Origin: a virus
Virus record (IMG/VR): IMGVR_UViG_3300042458_003482
Location: 1 to 33,219 of that record
Strand: one strand, 5' to 3'
DNA length: 33,219 bases
A model generated the notes under the pieces. The model ran no database searches and was not told where the DNA came from. It saw nothing but the letters and a program-made list of their open reading frames with translations. Within the stretch, counting starts at the first letter, position 1; every line of letters begins with the position of its first letter. Both the position numbers and the translations under genes were made by a program. Positions 4,997 through 31,621 of the stretch are shown in pieces.

Positions 4997-6546
4997 TATA
5001 GAACCGCAAACTGGCTACCAGCACGGCGGCGCATTAAAGTCGCCAAGCCGTTTTTGATGCCATTGACTAGGTCGCCCTGTGAAACCACTGAGCCTGCGAC
5101 GTTCACTGTGATGTTGCCCCCGTTCATTGTGGTGTTCGATGCAATGTTGCCGTGGCCCGCGGACGCGAGCAGCGAAATAGTTGGGCTTGAAAGACCAAGT
5201 CTGGACTGCTTCAGCAAGTTCTTGCGGACAGCCTCTCTGGTGATTGGGTCGTCCATGCCTTTCAGCTTCTTGTTCTTTTTGTTCAATTCATCTTGCGCAG
5301 CCGCGGACTTGTCAAGAGCCGCGTTGTACTTAATAGTCTCTTCTTTGACGCCCTTCATATCGAACTTAAACTTGCCCATGGCGTCGGCTGCTTTGTCAGA
5401 ATCTTTGTTGAACTTGTTGGCGGCAACGCCGATTGCAACTAGCGCGACACCGAATGCGGCGGCACCTGCTGCAGCGGAAATACCGCCTGTTGCGAGTGCT
5501 GTGGCTGCGGCCGATGCGAGTGAAACAGTGCGCAAAGCCTTCATCACCTTGATAATCGCTTGCACTCCCTTGATGAGCCCAGCCACAGCAGCCGCCGTTT
5601 TTGCGCCAAAGAATGCGGCAGCGATTACGGCGCCGAGTGTTACGAAAACCTTGGTGTTGCGTGCTACAAATGAGAATATTTCGAACATCAGCTTACCAAA
5701 TGCTACGCCGTAGCTGATTGCAAGTTGGAACGCCGCGGCAAGCTTTTGCCCGTTCAGTTCGACCCACTTCTGGAGCAGTGGCAAAATGTCTTTTTGTAAA
5801 TAATCAATGAACTGCACAAGCGCGGGCAGCATCGCCTGGCCGATTGTGGTTTTAATGCTTTCAAATGAGTTCTTGAGCGCGATAATCGCACCCTCTGGAG
5901 TCTTGCGCAGCTCCTCGTTGAATCCTTTGTAAGTAGAGTTCAATACCTTGACAATAGCCGCAGCGCGTTCAGCTTCTGTGCCGTTCGAAATCAATTTCTT
6001 GGTCTGCTCATCAAGCACGAAGCCAGCCCTAGTTAACGCGCCGAATTGGCCGTTGAGTGCTTGTGCAAGACCATTTGTCATCGTCTTGAACTGGTCCGCA
6101 GACGCTGTTGCGCCCTTTTCGGCGGTCACGTAGTCCAGAATCGCAGGTGTCAATGCCTGAATAGATGAAGCCTGCAAATCGAACGTCGCGAGTTGTGACT
6201 GCACGACAGAGACGTTGCCTGCGGATACGACGCCGACCTTCTCTAATGCTTCAGCTTGCGCGTTTAGAATCTTGACTTGCTCGGCTGTAGCGCCGTTGGT
6301 AGTGAGCAAGATTTGATTGAGTCTCTGCTGTTCAGCCTCTGCGCGGATAGCCGCTTGCACGGAGTCTTTGCCAAGCTTGACTGCAAAAGCACCAGCCGCA
6401 AGAGCCGCAAGTCCGAAGGACTTTGCTGCCTTGTCGGCGAACTTGCCGAACTGCTTTTCCATTCTCGAAATGTCTTTGACAGCGGCCTTTGTGCCCTTGT
6501 CTGAATACTGGGTGAGAATGCGAGCGATTACTGCCCCAACTGCCAT
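4996..6546 (-). CDS. Tape measure protein
   Basis: The 516-residue product shows the usual tape measure layout. It has an alpha-helical N-terminus (KDISRMEKQFGKFADKAAKS), long alanine-rich helices, a hydrophobic middle (about residues 265-380) with possible membrane-inserting helices, and a glycine-rich C-terminal region. It lies between the chaperone genes and the tail-tip gene. Tail length scales at about 0.15 nm per tape-measure residue, so this suggests a rather short tail of roughly 75-80 nm. There is no obvious lysozyme or peptidase domain. Confidence 0.9.
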   Translation of the reverse strand: MAVGAVIARILTQYSDKGTKAAVKDISRMEKQFGKFADKAAKSFGLAALAAGAFAVKLGKDSVQAAIRAEAEQQRLNQILLTTNGATAEQVKILNAQAEALEKVGVVSAGNVSVVQSQLATFDLQASSIQALTPAILDYVTAEKGATASADQFKTMTNGLAQALNGQFGALTRAGFVLDEQTKKLISNGTEAERAAAIVKVLNSTYKGFNEELRKTPEGAIIALKNSFESIKTTIGQAMLPALVQFIDYLQKDILPLLQKWVELNGQKLAAAFQLAISYGVAFGKLMFEIFSFVARNTKVFVTLGAVIAAAFFGAKTAAAVAGLIKGVQAIIKVMKALRTVSLASAAATALATGGISAAAGAAAFGVALVAIGVAANKFNKDSDKAADAMGKFKFDMKGVKEETIKYNAALDKSAAAQDELNKKNKKLKGMDDPITREAVRKNLLKQSRLGLSSPTISLLASAGHGNIASNTTMNGGNITVNVAGSVVSQGDLVNGIKNGLATLMRRRAGSQFAVL

Positions 6547-6549
6547 GTG

Positions 6550-7107
6550 TTACTCTCGCTCTCTGTCTAAGTTCTTTTGTAAGATGGCTTTGACGTCATC
6601 GAGCGCTGCCAAGGTCTTCATCTGTGCCGACCTCTTGCGCTCATCTACAGCCCGCCAAATCAAACGCGACGGATTCTTAATCTCGTCTGTCAGATTTGTA
6701 ATGAACTGAATGCCGCTGCCAGTGCCGCCTGATGTGCGGCCCGCAACTTCGATAATCGCACCCGCTGCAGACTCGTTGATGAGTGCACCAGCACTGGTCG
6801 TGTAGTCTTTTCGGACTTTGCCTTGTGCTTTGGTCTTGCGAATGCCTTGCTGAATCACGCCTTGGTTGTAGGCAGGCCAGCCCGCACCACCGCGAGTGGT
6901 CTTTTTGGGTCTAAGTGGCTCAGTCGTTTTCCAGCCCCTCATCGGTGGGTCAGACTTTACAAATCCACGGGCTGCACGTTCAGCGTCTGAAAGTACAGAA
7001 TTGATAACCGAATTGAAGTTCTTGACCGCTTGCTTGTCAAAAGCCTTTAAAGCGGTAAGAGTCTCTTCGATTCCTACAAGAATGATGTCGCTTTCGGCCT
7101 CAGCCAT
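6550..7107 (-). CDS. Structural protein, possibly HK97 gp10-like, 185 aa
   Basis: The product begins with an alpha-helical segment (GIEETLTALKAFDKQAVKNF...VLSDAERAARGFV) like that of HK97 gp10-type tail-completion proteins. A loop region rich in Gly, Lys and Arg and a helical C-terminus follow. Its ATG overlaps the stop of the frameshifted chaperone product (TGA at 7100-7102), so it is the gene between chaperone and tape measure. Tail completion or tape-measure-associated function is plausible but not proven. No catalytic motif is seen. Confidence 0.6.
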   Translation of the reverse strand: MAEAESDIILVGIEETLTALKAFDKQAVKNFNSVINSVLSDAERAARGFVKSDPPMRGWKTTEPLRPKKTTRGGAGWPAYNQGVIQQGIRKTKAQGKVRKDYTTSAGALINESAAGAIIEVAGRTSGGTGSGIQFITNLTDEIKNPSRLIWRAVDERKRSAQMKTLAALDDVKAILQKNLDRERE

Positions 7108-7503
7108 GTTTTTTCGCCCGTTCTTTTAGGTAGGCAGTTATAGCTTCAAGTACCCCCTCGGGGGCATCGAGCAAGTCAATCGGTGAAATGCCTGTTTCCA
7201 CCGAGATAGCGGCTACAGTGTAGGTTAAGCTATCTCGGTGGACCCGAAAGACTCGTCAGCGTCGAGTTCTGCAGTGATGATGGTGTCCAAGAACTCTGGA
7301 CCCCACGGCTTGACAACAACGCCAGCCGCACCCATACACTTCCACGCCAACCAAAATATGTGTTCGATTTTTTGCTCTTCACCGAGCAGCTTTGGCATTC
7401 CTTTGCCGTATTGCTGCTCGAAAGCCACGATGACGCGAGGTGTCAGTTTGTATGAAGCCTCGACGCCGTCTGTGGTTTTAACCTTGATTGATAAGCCGTC
7501 CAT
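7100..7503 (-). CDS. Tail assembly chaperone, -1 frameshifted long form (gpGT-like)
   Basis: After a -1 shift near TTTCGGG (7243-7249) the frame continues for about 48 codons to TGA at 7100. The added part reads RVHRDSLTYTVAAISVETG, then ISPIDLLDAPEGVLEAITAY, and ends LKERAKKHG. This is a helical pattern typical of the T part of gpGT chaperones. A TGA in the -1 frame at 7255-7257 and the 0-frame TAA at 7225 limit where the shift can occur. The alternative start of an independent small gene is less likely, because no ATG or GTG with a ribosome site precedes the extension. Confidence 0.8.
7198..7249 (-). promoter_or_regulatory. Programmed -1 frameshift signal (slip site plus 13-bp stem-loop)
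   Basis: On the minus strand TTTCGGG (7249 to 7243) is followed after one base by CCACCGAGATAGC, an 18-base loop, and the perfect complement GCTATCTCGGTGG (arms 7229-7241 and 7198-7210). The loop holds the 0-frame TAA. The P-site tRNA on TTC can re-pair with TTT in the -1 frame. Pairing for GGG to CGG is imperfect, and the spacer is shorter than the usual five to nine bases, so the exact slip codon is uncertain. Confidence 0.75.
7225..7503 (-). CDS. Tail assembly chaperone, short form (gpG-like)
   Basis: The 92-residue product (MDGLSIKVKTTDGVEASYKL...) lies just before the tape measure region and carries the aromatic-rich core FEQQYGKGMPKLL...HIFWLAWKC seen in short tail chaperones. These bind the tape measure during tail assembly and are not in the mature virion. 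The ribosome site is GGGGGA with a five-base spacer. The gene ends at TAA inside the loop of a strong stem-loop, and a second frame continues after a -1 shift. The short and extended products should be made in a fixed ratio. Confidence 0.85.
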   Translation of the reverse strand: MDGLSIKVKTTDGVEASYKLTPRVIVAFEQQYGKGMPKLLGEEQKIEHIFWLAWKCMGAAGVVVKPWGPEFLDTIITAELDADESFGSTEIA

Positions 7504-7521
7504 TTGTTCCCCCTTGTTGGT

Positions 7522-7911
7522 TTATGACTTTGTAATAACTCCGCTAATCGGCCATGTAACCGACGCAGTTGCGAGTTCTCCGACGGCGCCATTAAGCGGA
7601 GTCCATTCGGATACTAACGCATTGAACGTGTATGCAGGTGAGCTGCCAGCAACTGGACGCACAGTCATTGAGACCGAGGTGCCGATTGTTGGGTAGATTA
7701 CAGATTCAAGCGCACCACCTGCGTAGTCCTGATTGAACTCGAAAGTGACGCTGTTGTCTGCAAGCCCAGCAACGCGTGTGCGGGCTGTGTTGCCAAAAGC
7801 CGTGGTCTCTACGACATCGAGCGTTGTGCCCAAAGTGACAGAAGTGACGTAGCTTGATAAATCTGTTGTGCCGAAAGTGACGGCAACGTTAGTCAGTACG
7901 ATACGAGCCAT
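7522..7911 (-). CDS. Major tail protein, paralogue A (129 aa)
   Basis: This is a beta-rich 129-residue protein (MARIVLTNVAVTFGTTDLSSYV...) in the standard position just upstream of the tail chaperone. It shares with the next gene the same frame and length, an N-terminal MAR[IL]VLTN, a core motif VETTAFGNTARTRVAGLADN, and a nearly identical C-terminal segment (WTPLNGAVGELATASVTWP). The tail tube subunit must be made in many copies. Its ATG follows the previous stop with no gap, so translation is coupled. Which of the two copies forms the tube is not visible. Confidence 0.82.
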   Translation of the reverse strand: MARIVLTNVAVTFGTTDLSSYVTSVTLGTTLDVVETTAFGNTARTRVAGLADNSVTFEFNQDYAGGALESVIYPTIGTSVSMTVRPVAGSSPAYTFNALVSEWTPLNGAVGELATASVTWPISGVITKS

Positions 7912-12767: not shown

Positions 12768-14197
12768 TAATTGACCTCATAAACGGACGATGGATTTTCA
12801 GGGTCAATCGTTGAGACTTGCTGCAACTGACCTGTTGGAACTCCAGTATGACCCATCGGCGGCAAGCCAACAGCCTCGAGGACCGATTTCGGCTCGAATC
12901 CGACTTGAATCAAGTTGGTTGCGATTTCTGCCCTCAGCTTCATACCGACCTCTTTTGCGTCTGTCAAGTCGATATTTTGCAGTGGAACTCTGTATTGGTC
13001 GCCGTCTGCGACTGGTGCCATGTCTTCCGATGCATGTACGTCGTTGACTGACAAAAAGCCCTCGTTCAGGCCTTTTGTGTAAGCCTCGTAGCGCTCGAGT
13101 GTTGTACCACGAAGCAAGGCGTCAAGGTTGAACTTGATGAAGCCGTCAGGCTCTGGCAGTAGAGGTGAAAGTGCTTGTTCAATGCGCTCCAAAAGTGGAC
13201 GCAGTGAGTGCTGTACGAAAGACAAGTTCTGTGCTTCAACGGATGCAAACGACATTGCGCCTGCCACTGGGTGGCCGAGTAATGAAATCGGGACGCGGAA
13301 AAGGCGAGCGATTTCTTCAACCCCAAAACGACGAACTTCGAGAAGCTGTGCATCTGCGGCGTTGAGTGTTAGCGGCTTAAACGAAGCGCCACCAGTCAGA
13401 ACGCCGAGCTTGCCCGCACGGTACGGGCCAGTGTGTGAAAGATTCCAGTTGCGTGCGATGTCTGTGATTTGCTCTTCAGTAAGTTCGCCTGGAGATTCAA
13501 TGACGCCGCCTGGGTTGGCCGCGTTTCCAAAGTAAGAGGCTGCGTACACTTCGGCTGCCATCGCAGAACCCAAAGTGATGCGGGCTGCACCGATTGGACC
13601 GAGTCCAAGCAGCTGGCCTGGGAGTCTAAAGAGTGGAATATGAAGCATCTCGCGCTTCGTCAGAATCATTGTCTTTGTGGCGCCCTCTGCAGATTGCAGC
13701 CCGTCATACAGGCTGTTCTGACTGTTGGTGCCGATTGTGACTTCGTAGTAGATTTCGGCTTCTGCACTCGGACGGCGAATGCGCACGTTCTGTGGGTTGA
13801 TGCAGTAAAGCTCCATGACATCGCCCAGCTCGTCGCGGACGGTCAGAATGAATGCGTTGCCGTGCAGGTTGAGCGAGGTTACGATTTGCTCGTAGAACTC
13901 CAGGCGTGTGGTGTCTGGATTCGGGCGGCTTACCCACTCTGGCTGCGAGCCATAGACTGCGGCGTACGAAATGCGTTGACGTCCTCTGCGCACGTAGGCA
14001 GAGAGGGGCAAGGAACCAATTGTATCACCTAAAAGGCGCACACACGCGTAAACGGTGGACATGCGAATTGCCGTGTCGGCATTAACATCAACTCCAGCTG
14101 GAGATGAGTATGCAGGACGGCCTGGCACTAGCGGCTCAACGAATTGGTTCTGTGCTCGTTGTTCACTAGCCTTGCGCAGTCTGTTTGATAGACTCAT
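12767..14197 (-). CDS. Portal protein, HK97 family
   Basis: The 476-residue product has the typical portal signature. After a basic N-terminus (SLSNRLRKASEQRAQNQF) comes VDVNADTAIRMSTVYACVRL followed by IGSLPLSAYVRR. Later motifs include NPDTTRLEFYEQIVTSLNLH with GNAF, and PISLLGHPVAGAMSFASVEA. These mark dodecameric portals of the HK97 type, through which DNA enters and leaves. Its start overlaps the upstream glycosyltransferase stop by four bases. The order portal, protease, capsid is standard. Confidence 0.92.
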   Translation of the reverse strand: MSLSNRLRKASEQRAQNQFVEPLVPGRPAYSSPAGVDVNADTAIRMSTVYACVRLLGDTIGSLPLSAYVRRGRQRISYAAVYGSQPEWVSRPNPDTTRLEFYEQIVTSLNLHGNAFILTVRDELGDVMELYCINPQNVRIRRPSAEAEIYYEVTIGTNSQNSLYDGLQSAEGATKTMILTKREMLHIPLFRLPGQLLGLGPIGAARITLGSAMAAEVYAASYFGNAANPGGVIESPGELTEEQITDIARNWNLSHTGPYRAGKLGVLTGGASFKPLTLNAADAQLLEVRRFGVEEIARLFRVPISLLGHPVAGAMSFASVEAQNLSFVQHSLRPLLERIEQALSPLLPEPDGFIKFNLDALLRGTTLERYEAYTKGLNEGFLSVNDVHASEDMAPVADGDQYRVPLQNIDLTDAKEVGMKLRAEIATNLIQVGFEPKSVLEAVGLPPMGHTGVPTGQLQQVSTIDPENPSSVYEVN

Positions 14198-15270
14198 TTA
14201 GTGGCCTTTTCTGTGTCGAGTTGGTACCAGCCGTCGTCCCAAAGGGTCAACAACCGCTTGAAATATCGCTCGTATTGCACGCCGACCGCTTCGAGTGAAT
14301 ATTTCTCAATCGCTTGCTTTCGGATAGCTGCGCGGTCTAAAGACTTGACGTCCTCTGCCGCTTGCACGAACTCTGCCAGCGTGTGGCATCTGTAGCCAGT
14401 CACACCGTCGATGTTTGTCTCTGTAAAAGCGCCCCAGTCGGTGGTGATTGTTGGAGTGCCGCAGGTCTGAGCTTCGACCACGATATTGCCGAATGGCTCG
14501 ATGTAGGTAGTCGGCGCAAAAAGTGCAACAGCGCCGCCCATCAACTCTGCCCGCTGTTCTGGGCCTACGTTGCCAACAAACTCGCCGTACCCGCCATTTG
14601 GAGTGCCAGGACCTGCGATTATGAGCCTCTTGCCGAGGCGCTCGCAGACCTCTTGCGCGATGTTGTAGCCTTTTCGCTCAATAAGTCTGCCGATAAAAAA
14701 GTAGTAGTCTCCGTCGCCTTTGCCCTCGGGAAACATTTCAGGCTCGAGATACCCAGGGATAACTGCGTCAAAAAAACCGCCATCAACTGTGGTTGGGTTC
14801 TTATGTCCCGCATAGATGGAGTGCATCCAAGCATAAGACTCGAAGACCTTGAACTTGGCGAAGGTGCCACCATAGCCGATGCCGAACTCCACCGCAGTGT
14901 GTGCAGGAAAAGAGTCTGCGATTGGCTTGTGTGCGTAGCCGCCAATCAAACAAATGAAGTCTTTCGGCTCGATACGTTCGCGCATGCGGTTGATGACCGT
15001 CGCGTTAAAGATTTGCCAGTGCGGCAAGCTCGTATCGAAAGAGGCTGTCGTGTAGTGGGCGTCGCCGACTGCTGCAGCTCTTTGCTGTTCGCTTATGCAA
15101 ACCACGTGCTCTGTCACTGGTGCTTCGTTCTGCTCGCCTGCGTAGAGAACGACCTCATGCCCGAGGTCTGTCATCATGATACAGAAACGACGCACTTTCT
15201 CTGTGAAAGCGCAAGTTGCGAAGTCTTTAGTGACTTGTGTGTGTGGCAGTGCTACAACATGAAATCTCAT
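14194..15270 (-). CDS. Family 4 (GT-B) glycosyltransferase
   Basis: The start chosen at 15270 has a ribosome site (GGGGGA, three-base spacer); seven extra codons upstream lack one. The 358-residue product has a GT-B fold. Its C-terminal domain carries FIGRLIERKGYN (Arg195 and Lys200 in the donor phosphate site) and the EX7E pair Glu258 and Glu266 in YIEPFGNIVVEAQTCGTPT. Family 4 enzymes transfer sugars with retained configuration. Its place between the adhesin genes and the portal suggests that it modifies virion proteins, as does the family 2-like enzyme downstream. An origin from a host cell-wall gene is possible. Confidence 0.88.
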   Translation of the reverse strand: MRFHVVALPHTQVTKDFATCAFTEKVRRFCIMMTDLGHEVVLYAGEQNEAPVTEHVVCISEQQRAAAVGDAHYTTASFDTSLPHWQIFNATVINRMRERIEPKDFICLIGGYAHKPIADSFPAHTAVEFGIGYGGTFAKFKVFESYAWMHSIYAGHKNPTTVDGGFFDAVIPGYLEPEMFPEGKGDGDYYFFIGRLIERKGYNIAQEVCERLGKRLIIAGPGTPNGGYGEFVGNVGPEQRAELMGGAVALFAPTTYIEPFGNIVVEAQTCGTPTITTDWGAFTETNIDGVTGYRCHTLAEFVQAAEDVKSLDRAAIRKQAIEKYSLEAVGVQYERYFKRLLTLWDDGWYQLDTEKATK

Positions 15271-15290
15271 TGGTCCCCCGACCTTTGACA

Positions 15291-15521
15291 TTAAAGCGCT
15301 GCGATTTCTTCTGCTGATAGGCCGAGTGCTGCAAGTTTTGCTTCAGCCGAAGCTTTTGCTGCGGCCTTTGCTGCAGCTGCAGCTTCTTCTTCTGCACGGC
15401 GTGCTTCAAAATCTGCTTGTGTCGCCAAATACTGGGCGAGTTCAGATTCTGTCATCGGGCGTTCGGTTGAGATGCCAGTAGTGCAATCAATCTCAACGAC
15501 TGTTGGTGTGTCTGTTGTCAT
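15291..15521 (-). CDS. Small alanine-rich coiled-coil protein, 76 aa
   Basis: The ATG has a GGAG ribosome site. The product has a short polar start (MTTDTPTVVEIDCTTGISTE), then a long helix rich in Ala, Glu and Lys (about residues 25-65). It ends in the motif KLAALGLSAEEIAAL, which I recall at the end of short tail-fibre-associated proteins in many phages. It may help fold or attach the preceding adhesins, but no activity is known. It ends just before the glycosyltransferase gene. Confidence 0.7.
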   Translation of the reverse strand: MTTDTPTVVEIDCTTGISTERPMTESELAQYLATQADFEARRAEEEAAAAAKAAAKASAEAKLAALGLSAEEIAAL

Positions 15522-19546: not shown

Positions 19547-21460
19547 CTAGAATGTCGTGACGGACGCGCCAGCGTCAATCGTGTAAGTCCATGAAGTGGT
19601 GCCCGATGTTTCTGCGTTGTAGATTGCGTCTCCCCAAAGGTTTGATGCACCGCCGTCGAGGTAGTCCACAACGGGGTTGTCGCCGCCTTGTGGTCCAGTC
19701 GCGCCTGTCGCGCCGACGGGTCCAGTTGAACCAGTTGCACCGACTGGGCCTGTTGCACCGCTTGCACCAATGGCGCCTTGTGGGCCTGTCGGTCCAGTTG
19801 CGCCTGTCGCGCCGTCTGTGCCGTTAGTGCCTGCGGGGCCTGTGGCGCCTGTTGCACCGACGGGGCCTGTAGCACCGACGGGGCCTGTAGCACCGACGTC
19901 ACCTGCGACACCTTGTGGACCAGTAGCGCCGACGGGGCCTGTGGCACCGATTGGGCCTGTGACTCCGACCAAACCTTGCTCGCCTTGAATGCCTTGTGGG
20001 CCTGTCGCACCAGTTGCACCTGCGGGGCCTGTTGGTCCTTCAGCACCTGTCGCACCGACTGGACCTGTTGGGCCAGTAGCACCGACCGCGCCTGCGGGGC
20101 CTGTAGCACCAGTTGCACCAGTCGCGCCATCAACTCCCGCAGGGCCTGTTGGACCTGTAGAACCGATTGGACCTGTCGCACCTGTTGGGCCTGGCACCGT
20201 CGAATCCGCACCTGTTGGGCCTGTAGCGCCGATTGGGCCTGTTGGACCAGTCGAGCCTGTTGGACCTTGTGAGCCTGTGGCGCCTGTTGGGCCTGTTGGG
20301 CCGACTGGTCCTTCGGGGGCTTGCAGTGAAGTGATGACAAACGAGTAGTGCTGTGAGCCCTCTGTGTAAAAGTTGATTGAACGTGCCGTGCCGTCGTCGT
20401 TGCGTGCGTAAAGCTCGACTATCATGCGGTCGGTTTCTGCTACTGCAGAGCTTGGCAGCACAATTTCGAGCTGTGTAAGCATCGGATTTGCGCCGTCGTA
20501 TGGAATTAGAGTTGCATCTGTGTCGCCGATAGTTGCAAGGACTGTGCCAGCGCTGTCTGCAAGTTTTAAGCGAGCGAACGCATAAACGTCAGAGCCGTTA
20601 GTGGGCTTGCTAAAGAAAAGATTAAAGCGCTGCACGCCAGCTGGAATCAGCGTGAAACCAAACTCCTCGCTGATGTACTGCTGCATAAGCTCTGTCGAGT
20701 TGCCAGCAACGGAGTTTGTGACAGTCGCCATCGCTGCGCCAGTTGGCTCTGTGCCAAGCTGCTTGTAACCAGTCAGCTCTGTGATGGACTCATTGAAATA
20801 GTAATAGCGGCCTGTGGTATAACCCTGTGGACCAGTCGCACCTGTCGCACCTGTGGCGCCTGTTGCACCAGTTGCGCCGACTGGGCCTGTTGGGCCTGTC
20901 GCGCCGATTGGGCCAGTCACACCTGTAGGGCCTGGAACAAACGAATCCGCACCTGTTGGGCCTGTAGCGCCGATTGGGCCTGTTGGACCAGTTGCACCCT
21001 CGATGCCTTGTGGACCTGTTGCACCAGTCGCGCCAACGGGACCTGTAGCGCCGATTGGGCCAGTCACACCGATTGGGCCAGTCACGCCGATTGGACCTGT
21101 AGGACCAACTTCGCCTTGTGGCCCAGTGGCACCGATTGGGCCAGTTACACCGACCTCGCCTTGAATGCCTTGAATGCCTTGTGGGCCTGTAGAGCCAGTC
21201 GGTCCCGTCGAGCCTGTTGGGCCTGTAGAGCCGATTGGGCCTGTGACACCTGTTGGACCGATAGCACCTGTCGCGCCTGTTGGGCCTGTTGACCCTGTTG
21301 GACCTGTCGCACCGACTGGACCTGTAACACCAGTTGCACCTTGCGGGCCTGTCGCACCTGTAGGGCCAGTTGGACCCGCAGGTCCTTGAGCACCAGGCGA
21401 CATGATTTCAACGGTGTTGACGTCCTTGATTACCGTGACTTCGTTGCAGTTATTAGACAC
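19547..21460 (-). CDS. Large collagen-like fibre protein (637 aa)
   Basis: Two long runs of Gly-X-Y repeats (residues about 23-213 and 384-593, mostly GPTG, GATG and GPIG) flank a beta-rich domain (214-383, beginning [20 protein letters not shown]). A short C-terminal domain (594-637) follows. The repeats should form triple helices about 50-60 nm long each (about 0.29 nm per residue), so this is a long trimeric fibre. The N-terminus has a cysteine and an acidic stretch ([18 protein letters not shown]) that may attach to the virion. Phage collagen-like proteins are usually tail or head fibres; here the association with glycosyltransferases suggests surface display. The Thr-rich repeats could be sugar acceptors (inference). 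Confidence 0.88.
19682..20311 (-). repeat. Collagen-like coding repeats, tract 2
   Basis: This is a tandem nine-base-periodic coding repeat for Gly-X-Y triplets (GGX CCN ACN-type codons), read on the minus strand. Degenerate units such as GGCCCGACG/GGACCTGTT recur many times. Such tracts can change length by slippage or recombination, so length polymorphism among related phages is expected. They also create large overlapping frames on the other strand and in other frames, which are not genes. Confidence 0.9.
20822..21394 (-). repeat. Collagen-like coding repeats, tract 1
   Basis: This is the second Gly-X-Y repeat block of the long fibre gene, separated from the other by the 170-residue beta domain. 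Units similar to those of tract 2 recur, including [11 protein letters not shown] here and [11 protein letters not shown] there, which shows that the blocks share an origin. A duplicated collagen segment around an inserted domain is the simplest explanation. Confidence 0.88.
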
Positions 21461-23934: not shown

Positions 23935-24097
23935 GTTTCTCCTAAAGTTGACTAATCATTGAATGGTCTGACCATTAAAATCCTGAACCCGTACGCGCCG
24001 CGTCCTTTGGGGCAGCGGGGTCTCTGTACGCGTGAGTTTTTGAAGTTCGAGGGGGGGTGGAAAAATGCCAGAGAGGGGGTTTGTTGTTGCTTTGTGC
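23935..24097. other. Candidate cos / packaging-initiation region (163 bases)
   Basis: No gene occupies the gap between the HNH endonuclease and small terminase genes, the usual place of cos. It contains a perfect 7-bp palindrome around one base (AATGGTC-T-GACCATT, 23962-23976), a direct repeat GTACGCG (23991-23997 and 24026-24032), and G-rich stretches near 24050-24080. The palindrome and direct repeats are candidate terminase-binding sites. The cut position itself cannot be seen. The octamer GTACGCGT at 24026 recurs at 27899 in the other large non-coding gap. Confidence 0.5.
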
Positions 24098-24660: not shown

Positions 24661-25248
24661 TCATGCCTCTGTTGGCGTGTCGAGCATCAGCCCCAAGCGA
24701 GGCCATTCGGTTTCCGTCCATGTGTGCCCTTTCCCATTTGCACATGTGCAATCTTCTGCAGCGCACCTGCAGCCGTGATTTCTGCAGAGCAGAAGCCCTT
24801 GGTCCAGCTTGATAACTAACGACTTTGTACAATACGGGCATCTTAGTCTTGCCGTCAAGGGCCTCTGCTCCAATCCTAGCAGGATTTTCACCTGCAAGTG
24901 ACGTTTCGATACCGAAAAGCTAATCTCTTCAATTAGCGGTGTGCGGTTGTCAGTCGGCCACTTCTCTATCGTGTCGGCCACCCAAAACAACGAGCGCTCG
25001 GCGTTCGTGTTTGGAGTTGCCCCCTGGTCTAGCCCTAGCCTAAGCTCGGCTTCCCAGAGAAGTGTATCAGTGCGAATGTCAAGAATCGCATCAAGCACAT
25101 CGACACGCAATGGGAGTCTAGGCCCTGGAACTGACCGAGTGGAGCGCTCGCCAGTACGGCCAGGCTCCAGCTCGGCACTTAGGTCCTTGTACCAAGTGGC
25201 CACGTCTCTAATCTCCTGCGCGGTTTCAATTAGCGGCTTATCAGACAC
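24661..25248 (-). CDS. Zinc-binding hypothetical protein, 195 aa
   Basis: The chosen start is a GTG at 25248 with a GGGAG ribosome site, overlapping the dUTPase stop by eight bases. A longer frame from a TTG at 25299 is less likely. The N-terminal two thirds are helical and unlike known families. The C-terminal part holds seven cysteines (Cys137, 140, 155, 160, 162, 167, 169) in CPYC, LLCRNHGCRC and EDCTC, so it probably binds one or two zinc ions. In actinophages, proteins with this plan lie near replication genes. Binding of nucleic acid is plausible but unproven. Confidence 0.65.
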   Translation of the reverse strand: MSDKPLIETAQEIRDVATWYKDLSAELEPGRTGERSTRSVPGPRLPLRVDVLDAILDIRTDTLLWEAELRLGLDQGATPNTNAERSLFWVADTIEKWPTDNRTPLIEEISFSVSKRHLQVKILLGLEQRPLTARLRCPYCTKSLVIKLDQGLLLCRNHGCRCAAEDCTCANGKGHTWTETEWPRLGLMLDTPTEA

Positions 25249-25672
25249 CAGAACTCCCAAAACCCGAAGCGCCACGGTCGGTTTTGGGGAGTTCGTCAAC
25301 CTGCTGCGCCTCTACATCTAGAGAGGCATTTGTCATGAGAATGTACTGAACCAAGCGCATGCCAGGCTCTATCTTGACTGGTTGGTCAGTCATGTTCCAC
25401 ACACCAGCAAAGAGCGGGCCAGTGTAGCCACAATCAATCACACCTTGTGCAACCATGAGACCGTGTTTGCGCAATGTGCTAGAGCGAGCTGTAAGCAAGC
25501 CCCACGTGCCCTCGGGCACCTTAATCGCAACACCAAGCGGAACGTCCACGAAAGTGTGTGGTTCAATCACCATCTCTGCATCACAGTACAGGTCGAAACC
25601 CGCATCATCTGAGTACGCTTTAGTCGGTGCCAAGCCAGTAGGTGTCAGTACGCGGTACAATAACGCTGCCAT
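25241..25672 (-). CDS. dut: dUTPase (trimeric type)
   Basis: The ATG at 25672 has a GGAG site. The 143-residue product contains all five trimeric dUTPase motifs in order: DDAGFDLYCD, ARSSTLRKHG, GVIDCGYTGPL, MRLVQYIL, and the glycine-rich C-terminal RGASGFGSSGV. It hydrolyses dUTP to dUMP, preventing uracil in DNA and supplying dUMP for thymidylate synthesis. It lies in the purZ operon and overlaps its neighbours on both sides. Because all motifs are intact, activity is expected. Confidence 0.93.
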   Translation of the reverse strand: MAALLYRVLTPTGLAPTKAYSDDAGFDLYCDAEMVIEPHTFVDVPLGVAIKVPEGTWGLLTARSSTLRKHGLMVAQGVIDCGYTGPLFAGVWNMTDQPVKIEPGMRLVQYILMTNASLDVEAQQVDELPKTDRGASGFGSSGV

Positions 25673-26048
25673 GCTTACTCCATTCTTCAATAGATTCATA
25701 TACTGGTATTTCAAGGGCTGCAAGTCCAACGCTGTTCATGCCGATATCGCCAATCACGATGACTGGGATTTCTTTATCAACAGCATATTGAACCTCAAGC
25801 ACAGTGCCCACAGTCAGGATACCACGAACGAGAACGGCCACAAGGACGTCTGCTTGCTCGAGTACACGCAGATTTCCCCAATGCACGAACTCGTCTGGCA
25901 CTAAATCGCTTGGTGCTTGCCACGCACCAGCTGGGTCATACACCCAAGAGCATTCTTGCTCTTTGAAATGTGCCTTGATTGCATCTTTGACTTTGTTCAC
26001 TTTCGCGCCCTCGTCGAAGTCAATCGGTGCAGCTAGATAGACAATCAC
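25620..26048 (-). CDS. Nucleoside 2-deoxyribosyltransferase-like protein, 142 aa
   Basis: The chosen start is a GTG at 26048 overlapping the previous TGA (GTGA); a GTG at 26066 is also possible. The product begins VYLAAPIDFDEG, and its centre LEQADVLVAVLVRGILTVGT followed by LEVQYAV matches nucleoside 2-deoxyribosyltransferase and dNMP N-glycosidase folds. Glu85 is the candidate catalytic residue. Such enzymes cleave or exchange the base of a deoxynucleoside or its monophosphate. In this operon it might remove unwanted deoxynucleotides, for example dAMP, and so favour the Z base. That role is inference. The gene overlaps the dUTPase start by 53 bases. Confidence 0.72.
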   Translation of the reverse strand: MIVYLAAPIDFDEGAKVNKVKDAIKAHFKEQECSWVYDPAGAWQAPSDLVPDEFVHWGNLRVLEQADVLVAVLVRGILTVGTVLEVQYAVDKEIPVIVIGDIGMNSVGLAALEIPVYESIEEWSKHGSVIVPRTDTYWLGTD

Positions 26049-26440
26049 TTGGCGAAGCCGCCCCACTCACCGTTGTGACGTGCATACTGCGCCATTTTGG
26101 TGTAGATAGCGATGTCATGCCATGTGTCGTCGCTTGGTTTGCGTCCGTCTGCGTAACCGCCAACAAGACGGGCCACCTTGCCGAGCACATAGAAAGCGAT
26201 GCCGAGTTCATCATTTGAGACGTCCTTTGGCTCGCCAATCATTTGACTCAGCGCAAAGCCAATGACTTTGAGGTCAGCACTACCATACTCCAAGGCCTTT
26301 GGAATGACAGAGTCTAACTCGTTGCGTGTCTCGTCCAGCCACCACTCAGCCAGCTGCTTCACACCGTCTGGTGCAGTGTCGCCTTCAAGTGGTAGCTTAC
26401 CAAGCGCGGCCGCCAGGTCTTCCCATTTCTCAAACGCCAT
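26045..26440 (-). CDS. All-helical protein of unknown family, candidate MazZ-like
   Basis: The ATG overlaps the purZ TAA (TAATG). The 131-residue product is predicted to be all alpha-helical. A conserved-looking C-terminal half (NDELGIAFYVLGKVARLV, YADGRKPSDDTWHDIAIYTK) carries acidic residues Glu78, Asp105 and Asp109, and an N-terminal helix carries Glu37 and Glu41. This recalls MazG/HisE-type NTP pyrophosphohydrolases but lacks their exact ExxE motif. I recall similar proteins in other actinophages without a known function. Its place directly after purZ makes a dGTP-to-dGMP role (MazZ) attractive but unproven. Confidence 0.6.
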   Translation of the reverse strand: MAFEKWEDLAAALGKLPLEGDTAPDGVKQLAEWWLDETRNELDSVIPKALEYGSADLKVIGFALSQMIGEPKDVSNDELGIAFYVLGKVARLVGGYADGRKPSDDTWHDIAIYTKMAQYARHNGEWGGFAK

Positions 26441-27474
26441 TATTTCACCCACGCCATTGTTGATGGTCCTGTGCCCACAAGCGCAACACGCGCATTGACT
26501 GCGTCCTCGATGTCCTTGATGTACTTGGCTTGGTCGTCAGACAAAATGTCAATCTGTGACTGGTCTTTCAGCTCTGGAAAGATGTAATCGAACATGGTGA
26601 GCGCGATTTTGACATTTGGTGAGCCGCCGTTTGCAATGACTGCCTCACGAACTAGGGCTGCATCAAAATGGCCGACACGGCGAATCTTTTGAGTCACTGT
26701 GGTGCGCTCTGCCTCTAGACCAAGCTCTTCCCAGTTGGTCTCGTTCTCGAGTGGACCAGAGTTGCCAGCCACACGGATTGGGTAAGTGCGTGCAGTTACC
26801 CAGACATCAAAGATGTCCACTGCTTTGTCCCAAGGTGAAACGCCAGCTTGTGACAAGAAGTCAATGGCACGGCAATCTTGGCTTGTGCAGAATGGGTACT
26901 GACCTGCGTGCAATCCGAGTCCATAGCCCTGTGTGCCTTCGATTAGCGCTGTGCCACCAAGGCGCAAGTGCTCGCGAATAACTTTTGAAGTATCTACTCC
27001 GCCGCCGAATAGAGTCGCCTTGCGCATGATGCGGTCCGCACGTGCAGCGCCGATTCCCTTGCTGGTCGAGCCGATTCTGGCTTGGATATTGTCTGCGGTT
27101 TCGATATCGTGGTGCATAGGCTCCAAGATGGTCGCCTGGTCGTCCACGAGGATGCGTGAGCTGGCTTCGTAGCCTGCCTTGTCTAGGTCGTGCAGCTCGC
27201 GATTGAAGACTTCCATGTCAATCTCTGACCCTGCCGCGATGATGAGGTCAGACTCTGGGGCTGTCACTGCATTCACTGGAATTGAGCGCAAACGCCAAGC
27301 GTATGACTCCTCTCCGTCTGGCCCCTTGCCATAGACTGTGTGCCCAGCGTTTGGCCCTGCAACTCGAATGCCCATGAATGGTGCGTCTGATGTCGCGGAT
27401 AGGTAGCCTGCTACTGCTCCCTTGCCTTCGCTGCCGTACTGACCGCCAACAACGGCGATTAAACGTCCTGCCAT
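26440..27474 (-). CDS. purZ: Aminoadenylosuccinate synthetase (PurZ), Z-DNA synthesis
   Basis: The 344-residue product is an adenylosuccinate synthetase homologue. The P-loop-like start reads GGQYGSEGKG: Ser15 takes the place of the catalytic Asp in the WGDEGKG of PurA, a known mark of PurZ. His45 (GPNAGHTVY) is kept, as are the IMP/dGMP-site motif STSKGIGAARADR and EGTQGYG. The GTP-specificity motif TKLD of PurA has become TMFD (293-296), consistent with PurZ enzymes using (d)ATP. PurZ joins aspartate to dGMP; host PurB and kinases then give dZTP (2-aminoadenine). The shorter length compared with PurA (about 430) also fits. A ribosome site GGGGGA precedes the ATG. Confidence 0.88.
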   Translation of the reverse strand: MAGRLIAVVGGQYGSEGKGAVAGYLSATSDAPFMGIRVAGPNAGHTVYGKGPDGEESYAWRLRSIPVNAVTAPESDLIIAAGSEIDMEVFNRELHDLDKAGYEASSRILVDDQATILEPMHHDIETADNIQARIGSTSKGIGAARADRIMRKATLFGGGVDTSKVIREHLRLGGTALIEGTQGYGLGLHAGQYPFCTSQDCRAIDFLSQAGVSPWDKAVDIFDVWVTARTYPIRVAGNSGPLENETNWEELGLEAERTTVTQKIRRVGHFDAALVREAVIANGGSPNVKIALTMFDYIFPELKDQSQIDILSDDQAKYIKDIEDAVNARVALVGTGPSTMAWVK

Positions 27475-27486
27475 TTGATTCCCCCT

Positions 27487-27816
27487 TTAGAAGTTCGGAG
27501 TGTCACTCGACACTGCCGTTTTTTCGTTCCAGTAGTCGGGCTCTTTCCGACTGTACTGGGGTGAGCGGCACTGGTGTTTAGCCAGTACGAACTCGTATTG
27601 CTTTGCGATGTTGCGAATCCAACGCCGCTCTAGGTAGAAGCCTGGCCGCCACCTAGAAACTCCATATGTCTGTCGCTTATTGAATAGGCACTGTGCCTCA
27701 GTCAACAAGTCCACAGGAATCGGGTCACACTCGAAGCGAAACCCGCACCACTGCGCTTTCCAAATAAAGCCAAAACAGGACAAACACACCCCACCTTGAG
27801 CTTTTTTATCCTGCAT
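27487..27816 (-). CDS. Cysteine-containing hypothetical protein, 109 aa
   Basis: The product has a first pair Cys11-x-x-Cys14 in GGVCLSCFGF. Further cysteines (24, 30, 43) and a late HQC follow, as well as basic and aromatic residues (VSRWRPGFYLERRWI). The arrangement suggests a zinc-stabilised small protein that I recall near replication genes in actinophages, but no function is known. It is the first gene after the repeat-rich gap and probably heads the purZ operon. The ribosome site is an AGG eight bases before the ATG. Confidence 0.6.
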   Translation of the reverse strand: MQDKKAQGGVCLSCFGFIWKAQWCGFRFECDPIPVDLLTEAQCLFNKRQTYGVSRWRPGFYLERRWIRNIAKQYEFVLAKHQCRSPQYSRKEPDYWNEKTAVSSDTPNF

Positions 27817-27966: not shown

Positions 27967-28134
27967 TCACCCCTGGTGCCCCCAGCCAGTGCCCTTAAAG
28001 ACGACCCCTGGAGAGGACCAAACTCTATCAGCAAGCTGGCCACAACACAAGGGCGCCACGGTCTCGCCATGCACTGAACCGTCCACCGTCAGGGACATGC
28101 TGCATATCCCGCAGCGAAACTCATAAATCGGCAT
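27967..28134 (-). CDS. FmdB-type zinc-ribbon protein, 55 aa
   Basis: The ATG overlaps the PrimPol TAA (TAATG). The product begins MPIYEFRCGICSMS, the hallmark start of FmdB-family zinc ribbons. It continues with a second cysteine pair in APLCCGQ and the ending RVWSSPGVVFKGTGWGHQG, also typical of that family. Four cysteines (Cys8, Cys11, Cys30, Cys31) probably bind zinc. FmdB-like proteins are thought to act as small regulators, but their function is not settled. The link with a primase-polymerase is worth noting. Confidence 0.85.
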   Translation of the reverse strand: MPIYEFRCGICSMSLTVDGSVHGETVAPLCCGQLADRVWSSPGVVFKGTGWGHQG

Positions 28135-30212
28135 TAAACAATCCCCTCGAATGGTAGCGGTGCTCCAAGCACATACGGCTTGCAGTGGCTGTAATAGCGC
28201 CCTTGGCCAGATGCTCGGACTGACAAGTGCCCAGTGTTCTCCAGCTGTGAAATCGCCTTCTTGATTTGGTCGGTTCCACCCTCGATTGCCTGGACGATTT
28301 GATTGGTGGACAGCTCTGCCCCGTGCTTCTCCATGAACTCCGACAGCTTTCGCATCAGGTATTCATGAGGTGAGAAGCCAGTCTGTCCACCAACGATTGA
28401 GATTTCGATACTGTTATCGGGCTTGGAAATCAAGTCCACAGTACCGACAAAGGACGCCTCTTGTGAGATTCCGCGCACGAAACCTGGGCGGTCCTTGGTG
28501 ATTTTGAGATTCAGCTTGCCATTAGAACCACGGCCGAAAGGCATGGAAACGTCCACAGAAATGGCGACGCCGTCAATGTCTGCACGCTTTGCTTGTGCAC
28601 CGATGGCGTAATTGCCGCGGTTGTCCTTGCTCTTGGTGACGTGGTCAATAGTCAAGACCGCAGCCCCCCACAAACGGAGCGGGCGCAGCACAACCTGCGA
28701 GAATTGAGTCGCGTCTTTGTTCTTTTCAAGGTCCAAGCCCAGCAGGTTCATGGCGGCGTTGACACCGTCCATTACAATCAAGTCGGGTGTGAAGTCGCGA
28801 ATCGAGCCCAAGAGAGCTTGCTGTGCGATTTCGTTGTAGCCCCCATCTGGGTTGGCGTACTTGAAGCGGGCAAAATGCTCACGCATGACGCCGAGCGCCT
28901 TCAGACGGCCGCGGATACCACGCTTGGAATCCTCGAAGTCAATGTAAAAGACCTTGTTGCCCTGCACCAGTTGCTGGCGCACAGCTTCCAGCGCCACCCA
29001 AGTCTTTCCAGATTCTGATTCACCAAATATGGCGTTAATCTTTCCCGCATAGAGCAAGCACTGACCGTCGGTGCGGTAAAGCACTGTGGGTCCAGGTTCT
29101 GTCTCGTCCTCATCGAACTCGACCAACCTTGGAAGCCAGCTGGTGTCGGGTTCTGGCGCGGGCAGTTCTGCGATGTCTGGGTCTGGCTCTGGCGTAGGCT
29201 CAGACTCCAGCCACGCGCTGACATCAATCGGCTGCAGGTGACTGCCACCGCCTGTGCCAAATCCCTTGGCTTTCAGCGCTGCCGCAGCCTTTGAGAAGTC
29301 GCCACTGTGCTCGACTAGGGTGTACACCGCGAACTTGGAGTAGGCACGCTCTGCGTCAAAGATGGTGCTGGTGCTGAAGCAGTAGAAAAAGTCTGTGCCG
29401 TCGAAGCCCGTGGTGGCAGAGATGCCCTCGGACTTGCCTGGACGGCGCCACGCGGTTGTGCCGCGGTTTGTGAAGACCTTTGACCACCCCAAGGGCAACA
29501 GAATCTCGTCCCAGCTCGTCTTTGCGTTATAGTCGTCGCCTGGAAGTTCGCGGTTCTCTTCCCGAGTACCCACGGAGACCTCGGAAGCCACCACGGAAGC
29601 CTTTGGAAGTTGGTCAAAATATTTGAATAAAGAGTGAATCGTCTCGCGCTCGTCGAGGCTCAGGACGGGTATTGTCTCAATCGAGCCCGAAATAAGTTGC
29701 CAGACCCCACCCGATGGGTGGCAGGTGCCGCCTGTTGGTGCGACCACCACGAAGCCACCCTCGCCGCGAGTCTCGGCAAGCACATCTACGCCATCATTTG
29801 CACCTGGCCTGCGAGCCAGCTTTGTGTTGCCTGGGACTTCACCGTCTAAGCGGTAGAGCCAGTGCAAACCACCCGAAGGTGTCATTTCGCAATAGCCATC
29901 GTTAAGTCTTGACCAAAGAGCATCGATGCCCATTTCGTGGGCCATCTCTTTGATTTGAGTGTGCATTCCGTCTGCCACGGCGCGACCTTCGAGTTCCATC
30001 ATCTCGAGCGAGCCCGATATCTTGCCCGTGATTAGTCCGACGCCTTGTGCGTCCTTGAACCAGGCTTGCAGCTCATCGGTGGTCGGCATCTTGCTCTGGT
30101 ACTCTTTCCAGGAGCCAATGCCTGGACGCTTGGAGCCGTCGGCCATAACTGGCACAACCGAGCACCCAGCCGCTGCGAATCTTAAAGCGGCAGTGAAGAC
30201 ATCTAGTGACAC
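28134..30212 (-). CDS. PrimPol-helicase fusion, replication protein
   Basis: The 692-residue product starts with a bifunctional primase/polymerase domain (about 1-200). Motif I reads LEMMELEGRA, with two acidic residues (Glu73 and Glu75) where Asp is usual. Motif II is SGGLHWLYRL, and motif III-like DVLAETRGEGGFVVVAPTGG follows. Residues about 385-580 are a RecA/RepA-type helicase with Walker A GESESGKTW and Walker B LIVMDG. The end (about 632-680) is a winged helix. It is the only polymerase in the window, so it probably both primes and copies the phage DNA, as in cyanophage S-2L, whose PrimPol accepts both A and Z. The GTG start has a GGGGGA site. Confidence 0.88.
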   Translation of the reverse strand: MSLDVFTAALRFAAAGCSVVPVMADGSKRPGIGSWKEYQSKMPTTDELQAWFKDAQGVGLITGKISGSLEMMELEGRAVADGMHTQIKEMAHEMGIDALWSRLNDGYCEMTPSGGLHWLYRLDGEVPGNTKLARRPGANDGVDVLAETRGEGGFVVVAPTGGTCHPSGGVWQLISGSIETIPVLSLDERETIHSLFKYFDQLPKASVVASEVSVGTREENRELPGDDYNAKTSWDEILLPLGWSKVFTNRGTTAWRRPGKSEGISATTGFDGTDFFYCFSTSTIFDAERAYSKFAVYTLVEHSGDFSKAAAALKAKGFGTGGGSHLQPIDVSAWLESEPTPEPDPDIAELPAPEPDTSWLPRLVEFDEDETEPGPTVLYRTDGQCLLYAGKINAIFGESESGKTWVALEAVRQQLVQGNKVFYIDFEDSKRGIRGRLKALGVMREHFARFKYANPDGGYNEIAQQALLGSIRDFTPDLIVMDGVNAAMNLLGLDLEKNKDATQFSQVVLRPLRLWGAAVLTIDHVTKSKDNRGNYAIGAQAKRADIDGVAISVDVSMPFGRGSNGKLNLKITKDRPGFVRGISQEASFVGTVDLISKPDNSIEISIVGGQTGFSPHEYLMRKLSEFMEKHGAELSTNQIVQAIEGGTDQIKKAISQLENTGHLSVRASGQGRYYSHCKPYVLGAPLPFEGIV

Positions 30213-30796: not shown

Positions 30797-30900
30797 TATT
30801 CCCCTGCTTTCGTTTGGTTGGTGGTGGTGGTTGGGTCGCATTCAGCAGACTCGATAATCTCTTTGATTATGTCGTTGATGGTTTTCTCAGGCTGTGTCAC
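30796..30900 (-). CDS. Small acidic hypothetical protein, 34 aa
   Basis: A GTG at 30900, preceded by GAGGGG, opens a 34-codon frame (MTQPEKTINDIIKEIIESAE...) whose TAA overlaps the next ATG. It overlaps the end of the Cas4-like gene by 14 bases. The first half is an amphipathic helix; the rest is threonine-rich. It fills the only space between two firm genes, which favours it. No family is recognised. Confidence 0.45.
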   Translation of the reverse strand: MTQPEKTINDIIKEIIESAECDPTTTTNQTKAGE

Positions 30901-31621
30901 CTGGGCACCCCTCGACGAGAGACTTACTGAATGGTTTGAAGTATGGACACCAACTGCAAAGCCTATCGGCTTCCGCGGGTATTTGACCCCAAATCTCTGG
31001 ATTTGACTCGACATCTGCCGCGGCAAGAAGCGCGTGAATGGAGTCCAGGCGAGCAAGCGCGTCAAGCGCCACCTGCTCGTCGTAGTCGTGCATGACCAAG
31101 ACCATGTCTGTGAGCGAGCCTGATGTTGGTAGGTAGCAGAGTGCCACACTTTTAACATCAGCGCCTTGTTGAGCGAGTCCGTAGGCGTAGAGCTGGACTT
31201 GAATAATCTGCTGCTGGTCTGCACCAAACTTCTTATAGTTGGCCAGTTTAGTCGCACCTGTCGTTTTCCAATCGAGAACGACACCGTTCTTGACGTCATA
31301 AAGGTCAACGGTCCCAGCAAGATTCCCGCGGATTTGTACACGCTGCTCGATGAGAAATCCCTCGCGCTTGCCGAATACCTCTGCCAAGTATGCGTGAATT
31401 GCCGTTCCGACCTGAGCGCTCCACGAACCGCCCTGCATCGCGTTTGGCTTTTCCCAGTCCAAGAGCTTATACGCGAGACGCCTTGTGCATTTATGGCCCA
31501 CCTCGCTTGGTCCGATTGCGACTTGACCACTTCGGGGTGACCAGATACCTGCCTGGACAACAACGTCACGGACGGCATTGGCGTATTCCTCTTGGTCGCT
31601 GAATAGTTTGGCATATGTCAT
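30887..31621 (-). CDS. Cas4-like PD-(D/E)XK exonuclease
   Basis: The 244-residue product has the RecB-type nuclease motifs of the Cas4 family. These are His76 (GTAIHAYL), GTVDLYDVKNGVVLDWKTT with Asp106, Asp117 and Lys119, and QVQLYAYGL as motif QxxxY. Four cysteines (Cys45 in GHKCTRRLAY; Cys222, Cys225 and Cys239 in LCSWC...GCPG) are placed to hold an iron-sulphur cluster. Such phage enzymes resect DNA ends in recombination. The ATG overlaps the small acidic gene upstream (ATGA). Confidence 0.88.
   Translation of the reverse strand: MTYAKLFSDQEEYANAVRDVVVQAGIWSPRSGQVAIGPSEVGHKCTRRLAYKLLDWEKPNAMQGGSWSAQVGTAIHAYLAEVFGKREGFLIEQRVQIRGNLAGTVDLYDVKNGVVLDWKTTGATKLANYKKFGADQQQIIQVQLYAYGLAQQGADVKSVALCYLPTSGSLTDMVLVMHDYDEQVALDALARLDSIHALLAAADVESNPEIWGQIPAEADRLCSWCPYFKPFSKSLVEGCPGDTA

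Follow-up and report, generated by a model that had tools for sequence, protein, structure and literature searches.

A PurZ0 phage lineage without a recognised PolA gene, and a conserved, predicted MazG-like partner of the synthetase

Introduction

The described systems closest to the one studied here are those of the PurZ0 phages, namely Gordonia phages Ghobes and Archimedes, Microbacterium phage Goodman, Streptomyces phages Galactica and Hiyaa, and Arthrobacter phages Bennie and Wayne. They encode the synthetase PurZ0 and the hydrolase DutZ, usually together with DmtZ and often with a PurB-like lyase. The core purZ0-dmtZ-dutZ operon has been published, and the same study added DmtZ and a DUF5664 protein to the PurZ0 picture and measured the activities of DutZ, DmtZ and DUF5664 proteins in phages Ghobes and Wayne (PMC12884076). 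DutZ hydrolyses dATP and dGTP, DmtZ either releases adenine from dAMP or transfers the deoxyribose-phosphate of dAMP to the Z (2-aminoadenine) base, and the DUF5664 protein of Wayne is a dATP/dGTP diphosphohydrolase (PMC12884076). Wayne-like phages have also been described as carrying one dUTPase-like gene in place of datZ and mazZ (PMC8599892). According to the published view, PurZ0 is paired with a dedicated PolA, which is congruent with it and has been termed DpoZ-1 (PMC12884076); neither PrimPol nor primase is mentioned anywhere in that paper.

Other Z-phages are organised differently. Phages phiVC8 and SH-Ab 15497 have a synthetase of the PurZ subtype, DatZ and DpoZ-2, and DutZ and DmtZ are not part of their published picture (PMC12884076). 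Cyanophage S-2L has a PrimPol as its sole polymerase, whereas the other Z-phages rely on a DpoZ (PMC8599892). Adenine exclusion in S-2L is pool-based, a non-selective PrimPol being combined with the removal of dATP (PMC8065100, PMC8342488).

We analysed a virus record of IMG/VR, 33,219 bases long, hereafter called the window. Its lineage has PurZ0 and DutZ in common with the named PurZ0 phages, and a similar gene order after purZ0, but it is devoid of the DNA polymerase I that those examined possess. With phiVC8 and SH-Ab 15497 it shares a PurZ-family synthetase and pool enzymes. Like S-2L, it has a set of Z-DNA genes and, as sole polymerase candidate, a PrimPol; however, the two archaeo-eukaryotic primase (AEP) proteins differ, and S-2L uses an ATP/dATP-dependent PurZ (Gln at the Asp296 position), DatZ and MazZ where the window has PurZ0, DutZ, DmtZ and a predicted MazG-like partner.

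Results

The gene at 26440-27474 (minus strand) starts with ATG, has no internal stop and encodes a protein of 344 aa. Pfam, PHROG and PDB matches, a tree and active-site residues identify it as a PurZ0-type 2-aminoadenylosuccinate synthetase, which would join dGMP and aspartate into dSMP. The product matches PF00709 (E=9.5e-44) and phrog_1211, '2-aminooxy adenylosuccinate synthetase' (E=4.1e-81), and its top PDB sequence match (E=1.9e-87) is 7VF6, the PurZ0 of Gordonia phage Archimedes (PMC12884076). Among named phages, the closest proteins are those of Streptomyces phages Galactica and Keanu (52-55%), whose genes are annotated as PurA-like, followed by matches in Gordonia, Curtobacterium, Arthrobacter and Microbacterium phages; the identity to named phages ranges over about 41-55% (tblastn), with a top value of 54.5%. 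Because 36 further IMG/VR loci encode the protein at 84-96% identity, in addition to these named matches, the reading frame is not a chance one.

In a tree of 146 PurA/PurZ-family proteins, the window protein groups with phage PurZ0 enzymes in a 63-row clade (support 100), which also contains Archimedes (7VF6), Ghobes, Sapo, Goodman, Olihed, Bennie, Galactica, Hiyaa and Parvaparticeps. The PurZ enzymes of Vibrio phage J3, SH-Ab 15497, S-2L and BUCT555 form a group apart, and the window enzyme is therefore a PurZ0. The rows of the clade come from phages or viral contigs with one exception, L122, a contig of 14.6 kb from a Verrucomicrobia bin, which carries the same operon as the PurZ0 phages and is probably viral despite its bin. 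The original prediction, that this gene is a PurZ and marks a phage likely to use Z in its DNA, thus stands as far as a phage PurZ-family enzyme is concerned, given the tree and an operon with known Z-DNA enzymes, and is amended to the PurZ0 subtype; the tree did not place the protein among PurA enzymes, and the length and phage setting on which the prediction drew were borne out. Altogether, it is very likely that the 344-aa protein is a PurZ0-subtype synthetase of a phage with the core Z-DNA gene set, from which a Z content of its DNA is predicted.

Two motifs had been put forward as hallmarks of PurZ. The replacement of the catalytic Asp of PurA by Ser was confirmed (Ser15, in GSEGKG), and Ser15, His45 and Asp296 are kept across all PurZ0 in the alignment. 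However, the GSE motif is not diagnostic: when bacterial and archaeal genomes were scanned with a pattern that selected for the motif itself, 77 usable homologues were obtained, all with GSE. The second motif, TMFD at 293-296, had been misread as a departure from the GTP-reading TKLD, since T293 and D296 of the guanine-reading TxxD of archaeal PurA are both retained. We therefore rejected GSE plus TMFD as proof of PurZ; as GSE is also found in a widespread chromosomal family, it is the tree and the operon that carry the PurZ0 assignment.

Every PurZ0 in the alignment, like E. coli PurA, has Asp at position 296; Asn or Gln replaces it only in the four enzymes of the PurZ group. In S-2L PurZ, residues of the TxxD motif contact the adenine of (d)ATP, and ATP or dATP is the donor (PMC8342488). 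The conservation of Asp296, set beside this adenine contact, thus argues for GTP, which on this one motif is probably the phosphate donor of the window enzyme. In the original PurZ0 paper, by Tong and colleagues in 2023, PurZ0 is likewise said to use GTP. A later assignment of ATP to PurZ0 and GTP to PurZ (PMC12884076) is probably a swapped phrase, because it clashes with the ATP/dATP data on S-2L PurZ and with the conservation of the motif. As a separate observation, a basal branch of the PurZ group is formed by a PurZ-like gene of Bacillus phage vB_BpsS-140 (L060, 3962-5083); its product has GSEGKG but Asn at the Asp296 position, and no adjacent annotated pool enzymes were seen within the stretch covered.

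On the 3' side of purZ0, three reading frames follow with overlapping ends: a 135-aa frame, a nucleoside deoxyribosyltransferase-family frame and a dUTPase-family frame. The deoxyribosyltransferase-family protein (25620-26066, minus strand, 148 aa; PF05014, E=3.6e-8) is DmtZ-like, and it retains residues Y6, D12, P57, N77 and E103 of Ghobes DmtZ. Y6, D12, P57 and E103 are found in 97 of 97 proteins and N77 in 96, whereas the proposed lid residue Trp124 is Val in the window and Trp in only 21 of the 97, so that it is not a family-wide feature. The dUTPase-family protein (25241-25672, minus strand; PF00692, E=1.2e-25) is DutZ-like. We place its start (ATG) at MAALLYRV, within the longest reading frame, which begins at 25729. 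When dUTPases from 1,580 phage records, sampled at even spacing, were ranked by identity, the best matches (46-55%) came from Microbacterium and Arthrobacter phages of PurZ0 groups and the others reached about 39% at most. The dUTPase neighbour on which the prediction relied is indeed present, three genes downstream of purZ0 in the same operon, but it is likely to be a DutZ, a dATP/dGTP hydrolase in characterised relatives, rather than an ordinary housekeeping enzyme. Nor is the operon of a new type in its core, since enzyme and core operon are of an already known kind (PMC12884076); the novelty lies in a PurZ0 lineage without PolA and in a conserved, near-universal partner gene, predicted to be MazG-like.

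A PurB-like lyase is encoded in G001-G003, three genomes of the window lineage, within a segment absent from the window (PF00206, E=1.4e-31 in G003). Between the PrimPol gene and purZ0 lies a 109-aa frame (27487-27816, minus strand), also found in G001-G003, with a weak match to phrog_10480, and the same replication module contains a PD-(D/E)XK exonuclease (30887-31621, minus strand; Pfam and PHROG match). A three-sequence DatZ profile had no match in any locus scanned, and small seed profiles found neither DatZ nor DUF5664 genes in the window lineage.

The 135-aa gene (26045-26452, minus strand) shares 13 bp with the 3' end of purZ0, and all PurZ0 viral loci examined for it have a homologue immediately after PurZ0. 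The family occurs in 31 records of the annotated phage collection, from phages of Microbacterium (18), Gordonia (6) and Streptomyces (5) plus Curtobacterium and Micrococcus, a tally by host genus which equals that of the non-Arthrobacter actinobacterial phages matching PurZ0; none of the Arthrobacter phages in this collection has it. In Arthrobacter phage Bennie, the slot directly after purZ0 is occupied by gene 48, a dATP/dGTP diphosphohydrolase of the DUF5664 family (PF18909). No sequence similarity between this protein and the partner was detectable by HHalign, and the partner profile did not match the small gene that follows purZ in Vibrio phage J3 (possibly MazZ-2) either, one-sequence templates making both comparisons weak tests. 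The partner family is not described in PMC8599892 or PMC12884076.

Fold model, profile comparison and synteny lead us to predict that the partner is an all-alpha MazG-type (DUF6378-like) NTP pyrophosphohydrolase. The protein itself has no Pfam match, and 51 members of its family gave weak Pfam matches only, to DUF6378 in two cases; a PDB sequence search with the family profile returned weak matches only, mostly to designed helical proteins. The AlphaFold2 model (pLDDT 83.5) is all-helical, with four long helices in a bundle. Foldseek gave no significant match in the PDB; among viral folds beyond the family itself, DUF6378 and 'nucleotide modification associated' proteins came closest. Against PDB structures, Z was about 5 for iMazG and for dCTPase/DCTPP1 and lower for MazG, values that for a helical bundle are too low to stand by themselves. 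The HHalign score of the partner profile against DUF6378 was 24.0 over 73 collinear columns, above all of 200 column shuffles (mean 10.5, maximum 19.0). Both families have the collinear motif YG...K..R...DxW.D..Y, although the Pfam model of DUF6378 does not recognise the window partner, and the invariant positions of the partner family include K52, Y56, G65, E82, K92, R95, D109, D113 and Y117. We consider it reasonably probable that the partner is a divergent all-alpha NTP pyrophosphohydrolase that replaces DUF5664. In S-2L (L053, MW334946), a frame at 7334-7573 (plus strand), opposite to annotated S2L_16, matches DUF6378 (E=1.9e-8), and this phage may thus encode an unannotated DUF6378 protein.

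The window is a fragment, 1.9-3.6 kb short of its relatives, and four genomes were judged complete: G001, G002 and G003 of its own lineage and G014 of a sister clade (75%). G003 (34,080 bp) has an exact terminal repeat of 99 bp and G014 one of 123 bp. The ends of the independent relatives G001 (34,098 bp) and G002 (35,464 bp) flank approximately the same 10 bases, 24010-24019 of the window, a probable cos site; several further contigs end at about equal distance after purZ0. As to the host, the terminase resembles those of actinobacterial phages, and the capsid protein has almost no named match. Two further genes were recognised by Pfam matches of their G003 counterparts. One encodes a collagen-like repeat protein near the terminase (window 19547-21460, L048 8822-10621), has many internal DNA repeats and varies in length among relatives; the other codes for a glycosyltransferase and lies before the portal gene of the virion module (window 14194-15291, L048 13182-14279).

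The PolA domain (PF00476) was found in none of the 14 window-lineage records, including the three judged complete, and it was absent from three sister-clade records, including complete G014; PolB and Pol III alpha were absent from the five records tested. The loss of PolA simply through the cutting of the window contig was rejected, since complete relatives are also without it. PolA is present in the next clade out (61-63%, L079-L081) and in every named PurZ0 phage examined. Six other PurZ0 records (G021, G022, G023, G031, G034 and G041), none of them judged complete, also have no PolA, which suggests that its absence recurs across PurZ0 groups.

As its one candidate for a DNA polymerase, the lineage has a 692-aa AEP (Prim-Pol) plus AAA_25 helicase-like protein (28134-30212, minus strand; PF09250, E=7e-11; PF13481, E=4e-11), present in all 14 records. 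At its metal-ligand positions (ELE, SGGLH, AETR), Glu stands at all the Asp positions of the pattern DxD/E ... H ... D. The same Glu pattern (ExE/E) is seen in Arthrobacter phage Peas, a phage without PurZ. The role of the AEP as a replicative polymerase is therefore putative, and the protein may be a primase only.

Discussion

How could such a lineage exchange A for Z? Judging from characterised homologues, DutZ would convert dATP and dGTP to their monophosphates, and the MazG-like partner would most likely do a similar job, so that dATP is removed and dGMP supplied to PurZ0. The tree and the residues suggest that PurZ0 would join dGMP and aspartate into dSMP, the precursor of dZMP, with GTP as the probable donor. 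A PurB-like lyase of the phage, present in the complete relatives, or the PurB of the host would then release dZMP, which host kinases would raise to dZTP, while DmtZ may destroy dAMP or re-use its sugar for dZMP. A non-selective polymerase, either the PrimPol of the phage or the replicase of the host, would finally put Z opposite T in a pool depleted of dATP. We propose a non-selective enzyme because no PolA-type DpoZ was found in the lineage and because S-2L provides a precedent (PMC8065100). By analogy with S-2L, adenine is probably excluded through the dNTP pool and not through the choice of the polymerase; DutZ and DmtZ would take the role that DatZ has in S-2L. We give roughly even odds to the wider scenario, in which the lineage dropped, or never had, a Z-selective polymerase and replaces A by pool control only, using an undescribed near-universal MazG/DUF6378-like enzyme besides DutZ and DmtZ, and in which the same may have happened independently in several other PurZ0 groups.

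Pool control has to be weighed against other readings of the same genes. That polA is merely missing from the assemblies is hardly credible: the window being a fragment speaks for it, but neither the two genomes with terminal repeats nor the two with cos-like ends contain PF00476. It would be equally surprising if the phage had captured a chromosomal-type GSE PurA-like protein for a use other than Z-DNA, such as nucleotide detoxification. The GSE motif in 77 bacterial and archaeal homologues, many of them encoded beside a dCTP-deaminase-like gene, gives this idea some ground; however, the tree splits the chromosomal proteins from phage PurZ0 (L122 aside), positions 293-294 are TM in PurZ0, whereas most chromosomal proteins have NH or an F there, and the chromosomal loci have other neighbours than the operon of PurZ0 phages.

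The two remaining readings concern the polymerase. Z might be made and used but selected by the AEP-helicase, or by an unrecognised protein, in replacement of DpoZ. The AEP is the sole polymerase candidate in all 14 records and has unusual carboxylates (ExE, E) at its metal ligands, but the same ones occur in Peas without PurZ, the S-2L PrimPol is non-selective (PMC8065100), and the pool enzymes have been kept, as would be the case if exclusion depended on them; we regard such selection as unlikely. A possibility that we take more seriously, though tentatively, is a branch of the preferred explanation and retains Z-DNA: the host replicase would copy the phage DNA once the dATP pool is emptied, the AEP serving only as primase and helicase. 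The Glu residues at its catalytic Asp positions and the occurrence of this AEP type in Peas favour such a division of labour, whereas its maintenance in every record of the lineage and the use by S-2L of its own PrimPol point to a phage polymerase. Pool control alone as the means of swapping A for Z outside S-2L becomes directly testable with complete genomes that have PurZ0 and no PolA, and the further near-universal, uncharacterised gene of the PurZ0 operon is a concrete protein to assay.

The occurrence of GSE in so large a chromosomal family means that the signature alone over-calls Z-phages. In loci L125-L201, from many bacterial phyla and some archaea, the GSEGKG PurA-like gene lies at about 6001-7000, and a dCTP-deaminase-like gene was found near it in 56 of 80 loci (for example L160, 7023-8060, PF22769), 12 of which additionally have a deoxynucleoside kinase-like gene. 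PADLOC gave no match for the PurA-like and dCTP-deaminase-like pair, which is a possible nucleotide-based defence or modification operon. A second GSE PurA-like group (L152, L177, L181, L182, L187-L195, L197, L198 and L200) lies in a toxin/defence-like setting, with a DUF7002 neighbour in 17 loci and, in 12, a single protein that combines IrrE-peptidase and Macro domains.
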